This document shows positions 1,530 through 6,365 of a stretch of 64,000 nt of DNA, in pieces. Each line of letters starts with the position of its first letter. Positions within the stretch are counted from its first letter, which is position 1. The DNA is from a virus: the IMG/VR virus record IMGVR_UViG_3300046311_000263, positions 1-64,000 of that record. One strand, written 5' to 3'. The notes below the pieces were generated by a model. It had not been told where the DNA came from. It saw only the letters and a program-made list of their open reading frames with translations, and did no database searches. Made by a program: the position numbers and the translations under genes.

Positions 1530-1756
1530 GCAATTTTGATCTCAAGAGCGCAGTTAAGAACTCAGTAAAATTTGAAAGGTACCGTAAGGGTAACCTATGG
1601 TACCTAGCAAGGGACGATCAGTATAATATCCTGTCGTTTCCGGTTCCTATTGAAGATACGGGTGATGCTACCTTTGAAGACGTAGATAAAGGTATCTATT
1701 TTATGCGTTATATACGCAAGCATCTGGAAACAATTAACAACGGTTCCTTAGCATAG
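1505..1756 (+). CDS. Open frame without a start codon, overlapping the acidic gene
   Basis: After a TGA at 1502-1504 this frame stays open to TAG 1754-1756. The protein looks genuine (FERYRKGNLWYLARDD and FPVPIEDTGDATFEDVDKG), but there is no early ATG, GTG or TTG in frame. It lies in the -1 frame relative to the acidic gene and overlaps its last eight codons, so a ribosomal frameshift or an unusual start could express it. The 3' end runs 15 bases into tRNA-Met. Alternatives are a decayed gene or an indel. Function unknown. Confidence 0.4.
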   Translation, partial: KAQRVHYVSNFDLKSAVKNSVKFERYRKGNLWYLARDDQYNILSFPVPIEDTGDATFEDVDKGIYFMRYIRKHLETINNGSLA

Positions 1757-1818
1757 TCGGCCTAATGCAGCGGTTTCATACGCCGCGATCATGTGTTCAA
1801 ATCACATAGGAACTACCA
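1742..1818 (+). tRNA. tRNA with CAT anticodon (Met or Ile2)
   Basis: Acceptor GGTTCCT pairs with AGGAACT; the D stem is GCAT/ATGC; the anticodon stem GCGGT/GCCGC holds TTCATAC, anticodon CAT; the T arm is ATGTG/CACAT. Discriminator A and CCA are encoded. CAT can be elongator Met, initiator, or an Ile tRNA needing lysidine; sequence reading alone does not separate these. The first 15 bases overlap the 1505-1756 frame. Confidence 0.85.
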
Positions 1819-1824
1819 AATAAT

Positions 1825-1899
1825 ACCTCTTTAGTTCAATGGACAGAATAGGGGTTTCCTAAACCTTTGGTGCATGTTCGATTCATGCAAGAGGTACCA
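1825..1899 (+). tRNA. tRNA-Arg (anticodon CCT), CCA fused to the next start codon
   Basis: Acceptor ACCTCTT/AAGAGGT, D stem GTTC/GAAT, anticodon loop TTCCTAA with anticodon CCT, and a normal T arm. The final A of CCA at 1899 is also the A of the ATG of the next gene. The 3' acceptor strand contains GAGG four bases before that ATG, so it can act as its ribosome binding site. Confidence 0.85.
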
Positions 1900-2165
1900 T
1901 GTCAAAGCTATTCTCTACAGTAGGCACTCTGACCCTAGACTCAGAGCTAACTTTTGGTAAGTACGAAGGCTGCACTGTATATGACGCACTTAGTGCAGAT
2001 CCAACCTACATAGCCTGGTTATATGTAGAAGCAGGAAAATCCTTTAAAGAAGAAGTTAAAAAAGTTCTAGTTACCAGACTTCTAGAACTATGTAACGATA
2101 AGAAGCTCTCTAAAACTAAACACAAGAACTATGAACCTTGGAACCCTGATGATGTTCCCTATTAA
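1899..2165 (+). CDS. ExoX C-terminal-like small protein
   Basis: 88 residues. Residues 16-45 (LTFGKYEGCTVYDALSADP followed by TYIAWL) match the pattern F-G-K-y-x-G-x-x-x-x-x-x-x-x-D-P-x-Y-x-x-W, the short domain found at the C-terminus of exodeoxyribonuclease X and as free-standing phage proteins; its role is probably nucleic-acid binding. There is no nuclease domain. The ATG shares its A with the end of tRNA-Arg, and the only Shine-Dalgarno (GAGG) is part of the tRNA acceptor stem. Domain call fairly confident, function inferred. Confidence 0.7.
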   Translation: MSKLFSTVGTLTLDSELTFGKYEGCTVYDALSADPTYIAWLYVEAGKSFKEEVKKVLVTRLLELCNDKKLSKTKHKNYEPWNPDDVPY

Positions 2166-2170
2166 ACAAA

Positions 2171-2425
2171 ATGAATAAACTACAAATGTCTACAAATATG
2201 CAATCCGCCCTAGATGCCGTTCGCGGCCGTCAGTTCATCGTAGGATCTATTGATCCTACAGGCACGTTTTCTATCAGTGCTCGTCCTACTACTCACCCTA
2301 ACAGGATTCTTGCCGACCGCGAGTCTGCGCGTCTAGCTGGTATGTATCCTGGTAAAGCCTTTATCGTGATGCAGCTGACCGGTGGTTCTATGGTTCCTGC
2401 AGCTCCTGCAATTCAGGCTCTGTAA
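2171..2425 (+). CDS. Hypothetical protein
   Basis: 84 residues starting 6 bases after the ExoX-like gene. It contains RGRQFIVGSIDPTGTFSISARP and ends in an Ala/Pro-rich tail (MVPAAPAIQAL). Codons are richer in C and G than in its neighbours, as in the highly expressed genes further right. No obvious Shine-Dalgarno; it may be translated by coupling. Family not recognised. Confidence 0.6.
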   Translation: MNKLQMSTNMQSALDAVRGRQFIVGSIDPTGTFSISARPTTHPNRILADRESARLAGMYPGKAFIVMQLTGGSMVPAAPAIQAL

Positions 2426-2431
2426 AGTTTT

Positions 2432-2507
2432 GCCCCTGTAGCTGAGAGGTTCAAGCGCTGCTTTTACACGGCGGGGTATGTCAGTTCGAGTCTGACCGGG
2501 GGTACCA
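2432..2507 (+). tRNA. tRNA-Val (anticodon TAC)
   Basis: Acceptor GCCCCTG/CGGGGGT (first pair G-T), anticodon stem CTGCT/GGCGG around TTTACAC giving TAC, normal T arm, discriminator A and encoded CCA. It starts seven bases after the previous stop codon. Confidence 0.85.
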
Positions 2508-2513
2508 AAATAA

Positions 2514-2693
2514 GCTGTAACCAGATGACAGTATCCGCTTTAGCGATAATTGTTACGTTCAGCCGTCGCGCATCCGCAGACGTTAAACTATGAGGAAGGC
2601 AAGCTGGAATAGACAGCCAGTCAACGTGAGACTTAAAATCCCAACAGATCATTGGGTCAACTCTTGGTAGTTATCAGACTAAACTACCACAAT
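2514..2693 (+). other. Non-coding structured stretch with decayed tRNA-Leu-like core
   Basis: No credible frame on the plus strand. Hairpins are visible: GTAAC/GTTAC around 2517-2555 with an inner CGC-TTTA-GCG, CCCAA/TTGGG near 2640-2657, and TGGTAGTT/AACTACCA near 2665-2690. Between them, a GGAATAGACAGC segment followed by GAGACTTAAAATCCC resembles the D arm and anticodon loop (TAA) of tRNA-Leu, but the D loop is short, the T arm lacks one T and no acceptor pairs well. Probably a degraded or divergent tRNA. Confidence 0.35.
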
Positions 2694-2769
2694 CCTGCTT
2701 TAGCTGATGTGGTCATAGCGGCGGTCTGAAGAGCCGTTGAACTTGGTTCGATTCCAAGAGGTAGGGCCA
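2694..2769 (+). tRNA. tRNA-Phe (anticodon GAA)
   Basis: Acceptor CCTGCTT/AGGTAGG, anticodon loop CTGAAGA with anticodon GAA in stem GCGGT/GCCGT, T arm ACTTG-GTTCGATT-CCAAG region intact, discriminator G and CCA encoded. Its CCA is the first three bases of the 17-base inverted repeat that follows. Confidence 0.8.
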
Positions 2770-2851
2770 TAATTTTAGTATACAGCGTAAGCGCTTACGT
2801 CTCTAATCAGGCTCAGCGACCTCCGACTGAGATTGTATACTAAAATTATGG
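2767..2851 (+). repeat. 17-bp perfect inverted repeat with two inner hairpins
   Basis: CCATAATTTTAGTATAC (2767-2783) is exactly complementary to 2835-2851. The enclosed 51 bases contain the palindrome CGTAAGCGCTTACG (2785-2798) and the hairpin CTCAG/CTGAG (2812-2831), so the RNA can form a three-way junction. The left arm includes the CCA of tRNA-Phe and the right arm includes the first two bases of tRNA-Asp. Confidence 0.8.
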
Positions 2852-2924
2852 CGCATTCGTATAGAGGTCATTACTGCGGATTGTCTATCCGCTTACGGGA
2901 GTTCGATTCTCCCATGCGTCGCCA
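2850..2924 (+). tRNA. tRNA-Asp (anticodon GTC)
   Basis: Acceptor GGCGCAT/ATGCGTC, D stem GTA/TAC, anticodon stem GCGGA/TCCGC around TTGTCTA giving GTC, T stem GGGAG/CTCCC, discriminator G and encoded CCA. Confidence 0.9.
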
Positions 2925-2930
2925 AATAAT

Positions 2931-3004
2931 GAGAGTGCTTAGCTCATAAGTAGAGCAGACCGTAAGGTATCGCGAGCAGAATCAGAACCTGCACACTCTC
3001 GCCA
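2931..3004 (+). tRNA. tRNA-like element with CCA but no anticodon loop
   Basis: A perfect 7-bp acceptor GAGAGTG/CACTCTC with G and an encoded CCA, a D arm (GCTC/GAGC) and a T-arm-like hairpin GCAGA-ATCAGAA-CCTGC (closing pair mismatched). Only 18 bases replace the usual 21-22 between base 26 and the T stem. They form GACC-GTAA-GGT, a hairpin capped by a GNRA-type tetraloop, so there is no 7-base anticodon loop. It is either a decayed tRNA or a non-decoding tRNA mimic. Confidence 0.5.
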
Positions 3005-3011
3005 AAACAAT

Positions 3012-3086
3012 TGGTGCTTTAGTATATTCTGACAATATACACTCCGGGGTGTATATTGGGGCCCTGAAAAGGGTCGGTGCCAGCCA
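3012..3086 (+). tRNA. tRNA-like element dominated by a 10-bp hairpin
   Basis: The acceptor TGGTGCT pairs along its whole length with GGTGCCA when wobbles are allowed, followed by G and an encoded CCA. A T-arm-like hairpin GGCCC-TGAAAAG-GGGTC sits in the right place. Instead of D and anticodon arms there is a perfect 10-bp hairpin CAATATACAC/GTGTATATTG with loop TCCGGG. No standard anticodon can be read. This is the second CCA-tailed tRNA-like element in a row. Confidence 0.45.
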
Positions 3087-3092
3087 AACAAC

Positions 3093-3180
3093 GGAGTCTT
3101 AACGTGTATGGACCACGGTACGCTTGGAAAGCGTTACGCTTGGGCAACCGGGTGGGGTTCGATTCCTCAGATATCCGCCA
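3093..3180 (+). tRNA. tRNA-Ser (anticodon GGA), weak acceptor stem
   Basis: Anticodon stem ACGC/GCGT with loop TTGGAAA (anticodon GGA), a long variable arm as in class II tRNAs, T arm TGGGG-TTCGATT-CCTCA and encoded CCA. The acceptor strands GGAGTCT and GATATCC pair only at the outer three positions, so the stem is poor as written. Confidence 0.65.
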
Positions 3181-3193
3181 AAATTAAACTACA

Positions 3194-3478
3194 ATGTCTA
3201 AACTACTTTACGAAATTCATATCACTTGCTATACTAGCCAAGCCAAGCAGGCGGCCTTCGCCGCAGCTGAACTACACTGGAAGACTAGCGAGATTATGCG
3301 TGATCCCGTTCTAGGTAATGATACATACTACTATTTAACTAAATATGCTGCTACTTTGGATCAGGCCATAGAGTTTCTAAGCGCTGCATGTCATACACTT
3401 CAATTCAAATATAATGTCATTATCGTACGAGAAAAGATTGAACATATCGTGTACGATATTAGACATAGACCAAAATGA
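3194..3478 (+). CDS. Hypothetical protein
   Basis: 94 residues beginning 13 bases after tRNA-Ser. It shows alternating helix and strand character (LLYEIHITCYTSQ; FKYNVIIVREKIEHIVYDI) but no motif I recognise. Its stop overlaps the start of the phosphoesterase gene (ATGA at 3475-3478), so the two are probably translationally coupled. Confidence 0.65.
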   Translation: MSKLLYEIHITCYTSQAKQAAFAAAELHWKTSEIMRDPVLGNDTYYYLTKYAATLDQAIEFLSAACHTLQFKYNVIIVREKIEHIVYDIRHRPK

Positions 3479-4017
3479 GCAAAAATATTTTTCTAATTGC
3501 AGACTACCATTTTGGGCACGAAAGCCCCTATGTTAAGTTTAAACGGGCCGACGGTTCTCCGTTAAGGCCCTTTTCGTGTTCTTTGGAAGCTGACGAACAC
3601 ATGGTTCAGGAACACAACAAGCTGGTAAAAGCAGGTGACCGCGTCTACGTATTAGGAGACGTAACTTTTCATAAAAAGCACCTCCACTGGCTTGAAAAGA
3701 TGAATGGCAATAAAGTCCTAATTAAAGGTAACCATGACCTCGAAGACCTATCAGTTTATCAACGATATTTTGATGATGTTAGGGGTGTTCATCAGTTTGA
3801 TGGTTTGCTTCTTACCCATATTCCTGTGCATCCTGCTAGCCTGGCTCGCTGGGGCTTCAATGTACATGGGCATCTTCATGCTAATCGTGTAATGAGAATG
3901 CACGGTAGTACTAATACCGATGCCACCGACGATAGGTACTTTTGCGTATCCGTTGAGCAAACAAATTACAAACCAATGTCACTTGAAGAGGTTAAAAAAT
4001 GGAAGCCAAAGCAGTAG
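3475..4017 (+). CDS. Calcineurin-like metallophosphoesterase
   Basis: 180 residues with the metal-binding motifs of the calcineurin superfamily in order: D-x-H (ADYHFGH, residues 9-14), GDV (about 62), GNHD (about 85), a lone His (LLTHIP, about 115) and GHLH (about 132). The compact size matches the phosphoesterases common in phages, which hydrolyse phosphomonoesters or diesters; the true substrate cannot be told. ATGA overlap with the gene before it and a start codon inside its 3' end (3999) point to a tight operon. Confidence 0.85.
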   Translation: MSKNIFLIADYHFGHESPYVKFKRADGSPLRPFSCSLEADEHMVQEHNKLVKAGDRVYVLGDVTFHKKHLHWLEKMNGNKVLIKGNHDLEDLSVYQRYFDDVRGVHQFDGLLLTHIPVHPASLARWGFNVHGHLHANRVMRMHGSTNTDATDDRYFCVSVEQTNYKPMSLEEVKKWKPKQ

Positions 4018-4163
4018 ATTTTACTGACAAGTCCTTACTGAATATTCGTAAGGATATCCTAACTGAAGAAATTAAAGAAGTTGAATATACCCTTGCCAGC
4101 ATGTATAAAGAATGGCATGAACTACTTAAGCAGTTAAAAACCTATGAGACTTGCGCTACTTAA
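3999..4163 (+). CDS. Small helical hypothetical protein
   Basis: 54 residues from ATG 3999, which overlaps the end of the phosphoesterase, to TAA 4161-4163. Upstream is GAAGAGG, a usable ribosome binding site. The protein is largely one charged helix (ILTEEIKEVEYTLASMYKEW). Overlaps on both sides support it being real. Family unknown. Confidence 0.6.
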   Translation: MEAKAVDFTDKSLLNIRKDILTEEIKEVEYTLASMYKEWHELLKQLKTYETCAT

Positions 4164-4296
4164 TAACGAAAACAATACACTCTCAATCTATGAGGGAAAT
4201 ACTTTGGTTGCAATGTTCGAGGCGCCAAACGACTACAAATACACGCCTGAAGAGATAGAGCAGGCCCGACTAGAAGAATATAAGGAATTAGCTTGA
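4144..4296 (+). CDS. Small hypothetical protein upstream of thyX
   Basis: 50 residues from ATG 4144, overlapping the previous gene, to TGA 4294-4296. It has a beta-like start (LALLNNENNTLSIYEG) and a helical acidic end (TPEEIEQARLEEYKEL). Its stop overlaps the TTG start of the ThyX gene as TTGA. No known family. Confidence 0.6.
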   Translation: MRLALLNNENNTLSIYEGNTLVAMFEAPNDYKYTPEEIEQARLEEYKELA

Positions 4297-4961
4297 CAGT
4301 ATCAACAAAACTAGTAGCTCTAACGGTACCTCTAGTGGAAGGCATAGAGACACCAGATGAATTCATTGCTTATGCTGCTAGAGTATCGAACCCTGCTAAT
4401 CAGCATAATACTTTGACTGCTCCAGGCCTTATTGCTTATCTTATTAACAACAAGCACTGGTCGCCATTAGAAATGGTTAGTGCCACCCTAGAGGTTACTA
4501 CGACTAGAGATATTGCTCGACAAATGCTAAGGCATCGCAGTTTCTCTTTCCAGGAATTTAGCCAAAGGTACGCAGAAGCTACGCAACTAGGACATACTTT
4601 CAGAGAAGCTAGACTTCAAGATGATAAAAATCGTCAGAATTCTATTGAAACTGACGATAAAGAATTAGAAGCCTGGTGGCAAGCCCGTCAACTACAAGTG
4701 TGGACGCTAGCTACAGAAGTTTACAGTGAAGCCCTAGCTAAGGGTATTGCTAAAGAGCAGGCACGTGCTCCTCTACCAGAAGGTATTACTAATTCTAAGT
4801 TATACATGGCTGGCACTATTCGTTCTTGGTATCACTACTGTGACTTACGAAAAGGCAACGGTACTCAGCGTGAACATGCCGCTATTGCATTAAGCGCTAT
4901 TTCTGCTCTTGCCCCCAAGTTCCCCTCAATTTTCAACAACCCTAAAATTAAATTAGTATAA
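4293..4961 (+). CDS. thyX: FAD-dependent thymidylate synthase
   Basis: 222 residues. The ThyX signature R-H-R-x-x-S-x-x-x-x-S-x-R-Y is present as RHRSFSFQEFSQRY (about residues 79-92), followed by the helical half with conserved R and E residues (KEQARAPLP). It makes dTMP from dUMP with methylene-tetrahydrofolate, NADPH and FAD. The start is taken as TTG 4293 because AAGGA lies seven bases upstream and it overlaps the previous stop (TTGA). It works with the ribonucleotide reductase, dUTPase and MazG-like genes in dNTP supply. Confidence 0.93.
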   Translation: MTVSTKLVALTVPLVEGIETPDEFIAYAARVSNPANQHNTLTAPGLIAYLINNKHWSPLEMVSATLEVTTTRDIARQMLRHRSFSFQEFSQRYAEATQLGHTFREARLQDDKNRQNSIETDDKELEAWWQARQLQVWTLATEVYSEALAKGIAKEQARAPLPEGITNSKLYMAGTIRSWYHYCDLRKGNGTQREHAAIALSAISALAPKFPSIFNNPKIKLV

Positions 4962-5359
4962 TGTCTAATAAATCGCCTAAGGGCAGCGGTCGTAAGGCAG
5001 GTCTTACTCGTTACAAAACCTCCAATTCTTACGAGACCAATCGTAAGCGTAAGCTGGCTCGTGCGCTGAAGCGCAACCCGGAAAATAAGCAAATTGAGCT
5101 GGCACTACAAGATAAGGGAATTCCTAGGAAGACTCCTAAAGTGCCGGTTTGGAGCCATTCATCTATTAGAATTGCACAACTAATGAAGCAATTCATGGGC
5201 AAGTACAATAAGAATATTCTTAGTTCCGATATTGACGCATGGCTTGTGGCTATTAAGGATCATAAGGACCAGTTTCTGCCTAAGAAAGTTATTGAAGCTA
5301 AAAAGCAAGGCAGCTTGTTTTCCATTGGTCAGCGTGTTCGTATTGTGCTACCTAGCTAA
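4961..5359 (+). CDS. Basic hypothetical protein
   Basis: 132 residues with a very basic N-terminal third (KSPKGSGRKAGLTRYKTS; RKRKLARALKRN) that suggests nucleic-acid binding, and a helical C-terminal half. Its start overlaps the thyX stop (TAATG) and its stop overlaps the next start (TAATG). Family not recognised. Confidence 0.65.
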   Translation: MSNKSPKGSGRKAGLTRYKTSNSYETNRKRKLARALKRNPENKQIELALQDKGIPRKTPKVPVWSHSSIRIAQLMKQFMGKYNKNILSSDIDAWLVAIKDHKDQFLPKKVIEAKKQGSLFSIGQRVRIVLPS

Positions 5360-5616
5360 TGTTAGTAGCTTATCTAATGTTTTGTCTAACTACTGCAATA
5401 GTAGCTCATATATACTTATTTAGTCACATACTCTCCGTTGTTGAAGACGTAGACGGTAAAAAAAATAATCTCATAGAGTATAAGGGTATTACAGTTACAG
5501 TTATATTTTTACTAAGCCTTGTTCTGGCTCCCGTACTGGTAGGGATATTAGTATCTGACTATAACAGTGACGTCTTTATTGATGCTACTATTGAAGCATT
5601 TTTAAATAAGGATTAA
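5359..5616 (+). CDS. Small membrane protein
   Basis: 85 residues with two hydrophobic segments, about residues 2-24 (LVAYLMFCLTTAIVAHIYLF) and 44-66 (ITVTVIFLLSLVLAPVLVGI), joined by a charged loop. It probably sits in the host inner membrane. TAATG overlap with the gene before it. Role unknown. Confidence 0.65.
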   Translation: MLVAYLMFCLTTAIVAHIYLFSHILSVVEDVDGKKNNLIEYKGITVTVIFLLSLVLAPVLVGILVSDYNSDVFIDATIEAFLNKD

Positions 5617-5626
5617 AAAATATATA

Positions 5627-5655
5627 TTGACACGCAGTGGTCAATAGTCTATAAT
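5627..5655 (+). promoter_or_regulatory. Consensus sigma-70 promoter
   Basis: Perfect TTGACA (5627-5632) and perfect TATAAT (5650-5655) with a 17-base spacer. ATTGAC at 5626-5631 and GTCAAT at 5639-5644 form an inverted repeat over the -35 box and could be an operator. It drives the gene at 5682 and probably the two tRNAs behind it. Confidence 0.88.
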
Positions 5656-5681
5656 ATATACTTAAATCGGAAAAACTTTAA

Positions 5682-5951
5682 ATGAAAACTTTCACGTTTA
5701 CGTATACTAAAGACAACGGCGATACCTCTGAGCGCACTTTGCTAGCACTAGTTACTCCTGGTGGTACTATGTACGCTGGTATTGACCTAAGTTCTATGCC
5801 TCCGGAAAAGGCTCAGAACTTTGCAGCAGACGCAGCTAATCTGTATGATGAATACTTGGCAGATCTAAAGGCTCTTCAAGTAGAGTACGACATTAAGCAT
5901 AACTATCGTCAGTTTAAAGCCGAAAATATTTCAGATCTGACAGAAATCTAA
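5682..5951 (+). CDS. Hypothetical protein under a strong promoter
   Basis: 89 residues. The start shows a beta-hairpin-like KTFTFTYTKDNGDTSERTLL, then a helix-rich end. It sits 27 bases after a perfect -10 box, so it should be strongly expressed, and tRNA-Trp follows within a few bases. Family not recognised. Confidence 0.65.
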   Translation: MKTFTFTYTKDNGDTSERTLLALVTPGGTMYAGIDLSSMPPEKAQNFAADAANLYDEYLADLKALQVEYDIKHNYRQFKAENISDLTEI

Positions 5952-5954
5952 ATC

Positions 5955-6032
5955 AGCGACTTGCAGGTGTTACGGCAGCATACCGGCCTCCAAAGCCGTG
6001 TGGTCGGAGTTCGAATCTCTGGCTCGTCGCCA
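5955..6032 (+). tRNA. tRNA-Trp (anticodon CCA)
   Basis: Anticodon stem CGGC/GCCG with loop CTCCAAA (anticodon CCA), T arm CGGAG-TTCGAAT-CTCTG, and G plus encoded CCA. The acceptor AGCGACT pairs with GCTCGTC at five of seven positions. The D arm TGC/GCA is short. Confidence 0.75.
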
Positions 6033-6039
6033 ATAATTA

Positions 6040-6113
6040 GCTCTTATAGTACATTGGTAGTACAGTTGCCTTGTAAGCATCAGAAGTTAGTTCGATTCTA
6101 ACTTGGAGCACCA
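6040..6113 (+). tRNA. tRNA-Thr (anticodon TGT)
   Basis: Acceptor GCTCTTA/TTGGAGC (one mismatch), D stem GTAC/GTAC, anticodon loop CTTGTAA giving TGT, T stem GTTAG/CTAAC, and A plus encoded CCA. GGAG of its 3' acceptor strand (6105-6108) lies eight bases before the ATG at 6117 and is the only candidate ribosome binding site for that gene. Confidence 0.88.
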
Positions 6114-6116
6114 TAT

Positions 6117-6365
6117 ATGACAACTAAACCATTCCGAACCGTAGACTTAGATAAATTAAGTCAGTATTATGTTTTTTCTGAAAATGTAATACAGAAAACT
6201 CTATCTATTGCAGGTGAACAAGAGGTATCTCCAGAGGTCCTCCCGGATAGTTTGGTACCGACAAATTCTCTCTTGTATTTGTGTGTGTCTTATTGTATAA
6301 TGTACGACAAGCTATTAGAATATGAGCTTGTGGCTCACCCAAAACCCAACAAAACAATACATTAA
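6117..6365 (+). CDS. Hypothetical protein
   Basis: 82 residues beginning three bases after the CCA of tRNA-Thr. The only Shine-Dalgarno-like sequence is inside the tRNA acceptor stem. The protein has a hydrophobic helix (LLYLCVSYCIMYDKLLEY) and no recognised motif. A promoter for the next gene lies inside its 3' end. Confidence 0.6.
   Translation: MTTKPFRTVDLDKLSQYYVFSENVIQKTLSIAGEQEVSPEVLPDSLVPTNSLLYLCVSYCIMYDKLLEYELVAHPKPNKTIH
6273..6301 (+). promoter_or_regulatory. Sigma-70 type promoter inside a coding region
   Basis: TTGTAT (6273-6278) and TATAAT (6296-6301), spacer 17. It would start about 65 bases before the gene at 6374, which is closed by its own terminator. Confidence 0.6.

Follow-up and report, generated by a model that had tools for sequence, protein, structure and literature searches.

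Acceptor strands of two tRNAs as candidate leaders of the adjoining genes in an uncultured T5-like phage

We propose that two phage tRNAs, tRNA-Arg and tRNA-Thr, lie flush against the gene that follows each of them and that the 3' strand of their acceptor stem doubles as the leader of that gene. Compact packing with re-used sequence around probably functional phage tRNAs is the best reading of these junctions, and one that we hold with moderate confidence. The window, by which we mean the whole 64,000-nucleotide stretch that was analyzed, covers the first 64 kb of a virus record that is 77.4 kb long, and its source is an uncultured, environmental T5-like phage lineage. At the first junction the ATG of an ExoX-like gene (1899-1901) takes its A from the final A (A1899) of the tRNA-Arg CCA and is preceded by GAGG in the acceptor stem; at the second, the ATG at 6117-6119 stands 3 nt past the tRNA-Thr CCA and eight bases downstream of GGAG in that acceptor (Table 1). 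The initial annotation had described both arrangements with correct coordinates and motifs. Its proposal that the acceptor stems are ribosome binding sites draws moderate support, for these two genes and in this lineage only, from conserved starts, from purine-rich junctions in most tRNA-adjacent relatives and from tRNA-less orthologues that often begin at the end of an upstream frame. If ribosomes do load inside the acceptor stem, then the same nucleotides are constrained by the demands of a tRNA and by those of a translation signal, and any one molecule can serve in only one of these roles. The junctions would then be a clear example on which to test how RNA processing competes with translation, and they would caution against gene callers that disallow overlap between tRNAs and coding sequences. 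If they do not, the junctions are a neat case of extreme compaction.

Judged by sequence, both tRNAs are probably functional. Each combines an anticodon and an encoded CCA with a covariance score above the Rfam tRNA gathering score of 29 bits. Within the first 6.2 kb ARAGORN predicts nine tRNAs, every one on the + strand; Rfam confirms eight of these and adds one at 1097-1165. The layout of tRNAs and genes is unlikely to be an assembly accident, since it is also present on a second IMG/VR contig that matches over 7162 bp with 100% identity. Both starts have anti-Shine-Dalgarno (anti-SD) pairing 4-12 nt before a homology-supported ATG. At 1899 the duplex energy is -7.1 kcal/mol, across a spacer (TACC) whose 4 nt are short for an SD, and opening positions -12 to +3 costs 10.1 kcal/mol, the third highest of 37 starts; at 6117 the duplex energy is -5.6 kcal/mol with a spacing of 8, and opening the same interval costs 5.3 kcal/mol.

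Table 1. Features of the two junctions, of the surrounding window and of related contigs (L numbers). Offsets give the distance in nucleotides from the tRNA end to the start codon.
Feature	Position or offset	Strand	Remarks
tRNA-Met	1742..1818	+	ARAGORN; directly upstream of tRNA-Arg
tRNA-Arg(CCT), CCA encoded	1825..1899	+	ARAGORN; Rfam RF00005, 61.5 bits; acceptor ACCTCTT/AAGAGGT
GAGG, candidate Shine-Dalgarno, 3' acceptor strand	1891..1894	+	4 nt before ATG
88-aa gene, ExoX-like C-terminal domain (PF20600)	1899..2165	+	N-terminus conserved among homologues
Hairpin, 19 perfect pairs	2766-2784 and 2834-2852		between tRNA-Phe and tRNA-Asp
Consensus sigma-70-type promoter, TTGACA-17-TATAAT	5627..5655	+	12/12 match; upstream of gene 5682, tRNA-Trp, tRNA-Thr and gene 6117
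tRNA-Trp(CCA)	5958..6032	+	ARAGORN; with tRNA-Thr, between genes 5682 and 6117
tRNA-Thr(TGT), CCA encoded	6040..6113	+	ARAGORN; Rfam 60.3 bits; acceptor GCTCTTA/TTGGAGC
GGAG, candidate Shine-Dalgarno, 3' acceptor strand	6105..6108	+	8 nt before ATG
82-aa gene	6117..6365	+	start backed by alignment with seven homologues
ExoX-like gene adjoining Arg-CCT	-1 (window); +3 (L005)
ExoX-like gene adjoining tRNA-Met	+1 (L006)
ExoX-like gene adjoining Arg-ACG	+3 (L007, L270, L278)
ExoX-like gene adjoining tRNA-Asn	+8 (L315)
6117-gene orthologue adjoining tRNA-Thr	+3 (window); +4 (L005); +6 (L262)
CCA-anchored hairpins in relatives	L313 2023-2151; L192 4252-4364; L271 3785-3880; L287 4252-4383; others
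Permuted tmRNA genes in relatives	L313 2118-2532; L208 3904-4273; L222 1845-2268; L036 4560-4953

Starts that adjoin a tRNA pair better with the anti-SD than orthologous starts that do not. In a comparison devised after the pattern had been seen, with adjacent orthologues that are few and partly siblings (about six lineages), energies of -5 kcal/mol or below were found at 8 of 10 tRNA-adjacent starts and at 13 of 71 non-adjacent ones (p = 2e-4), at 6 of 8 adjacent starts when the window was left out (p = 0.002), and at 4 of 6 against a fraction of 0.20 when about one start was counted per lineage (p = 0.02). At the level of sequence, this difference speaks for genuine use of the acceptor strand by this lineage. 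The motifs themselves are distributed similarly, GAGG being present in 4/5 start-adjacent tRNA-Arg versus 2/14 other tRNA-Arg and GGAGC in 2/3 start-adjacent tRNA-Thr versus 0/33 other tRNA-Thr. GAGGT is also carried by two non-adjacent tRNA-Arg(ACG), in L273 and L287, and may therefore be a trait of a tRNA lineage. Across the phage, SD 4-mers occur at 11 of 35 starts of longer + strand ORFs versus 23 of 335 internal ATGs (p = 7e-5), so SD pairing matters to this phage; because the remaining 24 of those 35 ORFs, about two thirds, have no such 4-mer, a binding site may not even be essential. SD pairing is thus likely used here without being essential. SD enrichment in start-adjacent acceptors does not hold as a general rule: it appeared in a first set of junctions from the clade (p = 0.0006) and was replicated neither in an independent set of clade tRNA-gene junctions (5/21 vs 80/406, p = 0.41) nor at tRNA-adjacent starts of other, unrelated phages. 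A preference of start codons for the A of CCA is likewise ruled out, with 15 overlaps at -1 observed and 12.4 expected from the A that CCA supplies. Per position, starts 0-8 nt after a tRNA occur at roughly half the frequency of starts at 10-25 nt, where the SD usually lies within the spacer, as expected if an SD inside the tRNA is a handicap.

Could the genes be translated from other starts, or not at all? The 1899 protein shares its N-terminus (M, F at alignment position 5 and the motif that follows) with homologues of four relatives, in an alignment where the ATT-encoded first residue of the L005 copy was entered as M, and a conserved N-terminus is common to the 6117 protein and its seven homologues. 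In relatives whose start is distant from any tRNA, the protein begins with the same residues. Between the in-frame TAA at 1860 and the start of gene 1899 there is no earlier ATG, GTG or TTG in frame. Given these conserved N-termini, a start further downstream or decay of the two genes is the least likely of the explanations considered here, despite the ExoX-like gene of L005 (3089), which carries ATT in place of the expected start codon, 3 nt past the tRNA-Arg CCA. A stronger contender, to which we give perhaps one chance in three, is pure compaction: in a tight genome, acceptor 3' strands that are often G-rich would simply abut genes whose initiation is SD-independent, through AU-rich starts, an S1-type mechanism or, at 6117, a near-leaderless mRNA. 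This explanation fits the many ORFs of this phage that lack an SD 4-mer, the agreement of the -1 frequency with the free-A expectation and the independent junctions without enrichment, and also the CCA-ATG fusions with long ORFs in unrelated phages, of which only 1 of 15 has an SD. It accounts poorly for SD complementarity that is clearly richer at adjacent than at non-adjacent orthologous starts, and for the SD enrichment at gene starts of this phage.

Comparison with relatives bears on whether the arrangement does more than save space. An enlarged set of related contigs yielded 35 distinct orthologues of the ExoX-like gene and 46 of the 6117 gene; a tRNA adjoins the start in 7 and 3 of them, respectively, window included, at offsets from -1 to +8; the other 28 and 43 have no adjacent tRNA. 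New ExoX matches in L175, L179 and L180 were set aside as distant domain proteins rather than orthologues. The arrangement thus recurs in some relatives, with a partner tRNA and a distance that vary, and is therefore not a conserved device on one tRNA. Non-adjacent orthologues begin where an upstream open frame ends in 13/28 ExoX-like and 31/43 6117-gene cases, and because so many tRNA-less 6117 orthologues are joined in this way, a tRNA inserted there would have to supply a binding site of its own. It is conceivable, though unlikely, that the lineage went further and recruited acceptor stems as ribosome binding sites for the gene that follows, with an SD acquired and the pairing of the stem preserved, such that a per-molecule choice between tRNA and protein sets the protein level. 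A regulated switch, in which processing-enzyme capacity or infection stage controls maturation versus translation and sets the ExoX-like protein against tRNA-Arg supply, we regard as very improbable. The shared base does make exclusivity follow at 1899, and tight adjacency of a tRNA and the ExoX-like gene is found in seven diverged orthologues, that of the window included. Against this stand the differing tRNAs (Arg-CCT, Arg-ACG, Met, Asn), offsets and SD matches, and the lack of an adjacent tRNA in most orthologues of either gene; in the window and relatives no signal, conserved partner, second conserved structure or promoter tied to the adjacency was found. The built-in switch of the initial annotation thus goes without support, as does the step from exclusivity to regulation.

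For the compact packing that we favor, we propose the following sequence of events. The tRNA and the next gene are presumably co-transcribed, and the 3' acceptor strand would be paired within the tRNA in some molecules and act as an SD-like mRNA leader in others, with ribosomes putatively using it at 1899 and 6117. With the SD buried in the tRNA fold, gene 1899 would be expected to be translated from those transcripts whose tRNA is unfolded or unexcised, and gene 6117 likewise, though less strictly. Output from these starts would presumably be low, and the competition between tRNA and translation is likely to run unregulated. The predicted loss of the start codon's first base on excision applies at 1899 only, where that base is the A of CCA; one RNA molecule would there yield tRNA-Arg or the 1899 product, never both. 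Mutual exclusion of translation and maturation accordingly follows from geometry at 1899 and is not required at 6117, where processing would leave an mRNA with UAU-AUG at its 5' end that might still be translated. Translational coupling through tRNA-Arg is ruled out by stops in all three frames inside it. An internal promoter at 1796-1824, before tRNA-Arg, which would free the SD, was rejected as weak (9/12), and the spacer between tRNA-Met and tRNA-Arg is absent in L005.

Our literature search found nothing direct on tRNA-start overlaps in phages, and we compared the junctions with better-known systems. In Escherichia coli, tRNAs and coding genes are co-transcribed in thrU-tyrU-glyT-thrT-tufB and metY-nusA, the tRNAs are excised by RNases, and a separate leader with an SD stands between the tRNA and the coding gene. 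The window would share the single transcript of tRNA and downstream gene, whereas here the tRNA itself contains leader and SD and, at 1899, CCA and start codon have a base in common. In mitochondrial tRNA punctuation, excision sets the mRNA 5' end and produces leaderless mRNAs, with overlaps of one or a few bases and no SD used. The one-base overlap at 1899 resembles this, whereas the SD-like sequence within the acceptor stem does not; excision at 1899 takes the start codon's A, which departs from punctuation, and 6117 could follow it, since excision would leave a UAU-AUG 5' end. Translational operators and thermosensors also hide an SD by pairing in the ground state; here the hiding structure is a complete tRNA, itself a product. 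The NAD ligase of phage T5 is split. Like T5 (AY543070), the window interleaves tRNAs with small ORFs and has a split NAD-dependent ligase gene (7635 and 8614), the first part of which is 43-45% identical to T5-like phages. Several ORF 3' ends overlap tRNAs in the T5 cluster. Unlike those in the window, T5 starts after a tRNA mostly lie 13-25 nt past the CCA, with room for a separate SD, and in the T5 stretch examined none of the annotated starts overlaps a CCA.

Other features of the window also concern tRNAs and coding sequence. A search of a phage database gave no relative of the 1899 protein, and the DNA gave short matches only, mainly to thyX. In several relatives that lack tRNA-Trp and tRNA-Thr, genes 5682 and 6117 overlap or are directly adjacent. 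A 93-codon ORF (208-489) spans an entire predicted tRNA-Cys (412-485), which has no Rfam match, and ends in a TAA that overlaps the following ATG (489); in L005, too, a similar ORF runs across the tRNA-Cys. An open frame at 1510-1756 (NFDLKSAVKN...ETINNGSLA) without a standard start codon, its TAG stop inside tRNA-Met, is possibly a frameshifted or non-canonically started gene. Two tRNA-like sequences with GCCA ends (2929-3003 and 3101-3180) are called by neither ARAGORN nor Rfam, and at the syntenic place L006 has a predicted tRNA with a CTA anticodon.

Long hairpins anchored at tRNA CCA ends are a separate feature and a more striking one than the tRNA-start junctions. Their left arm begins exactly at the discriminator base/CCA, the exact stems are 10-21 bp, and the right arm often extends to, or close to, the beginning of the element that follows, be it a tRNA, a tmRNA acceptor piece or a gene. 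Arms that start at -3 and span 10 bp or more occur in 37/661 clade tRNAs versus 4/848 in other phages and 0/22 in T5, and the clade tRNAs have none at sampled offsets from -8 to -20. In L287, L264 and L246 an inverted repeat of this kind is found between tRNA-Arg and the ExoX-like gene, with the ATG included in the right arm. The simplest guess is that these hairpins are a processing signal, for instance for RNase III. Two-piece tmRNA has been reported in aquatic phages (PMC9004378). Some relatives of the window carry permuted tmRNA genes (Table 1) with tags such as ANDQVYALAA, and in L313, L208 and L222 a CCA-anchored hairpin stands directly before the tmRNA acceptor piece.
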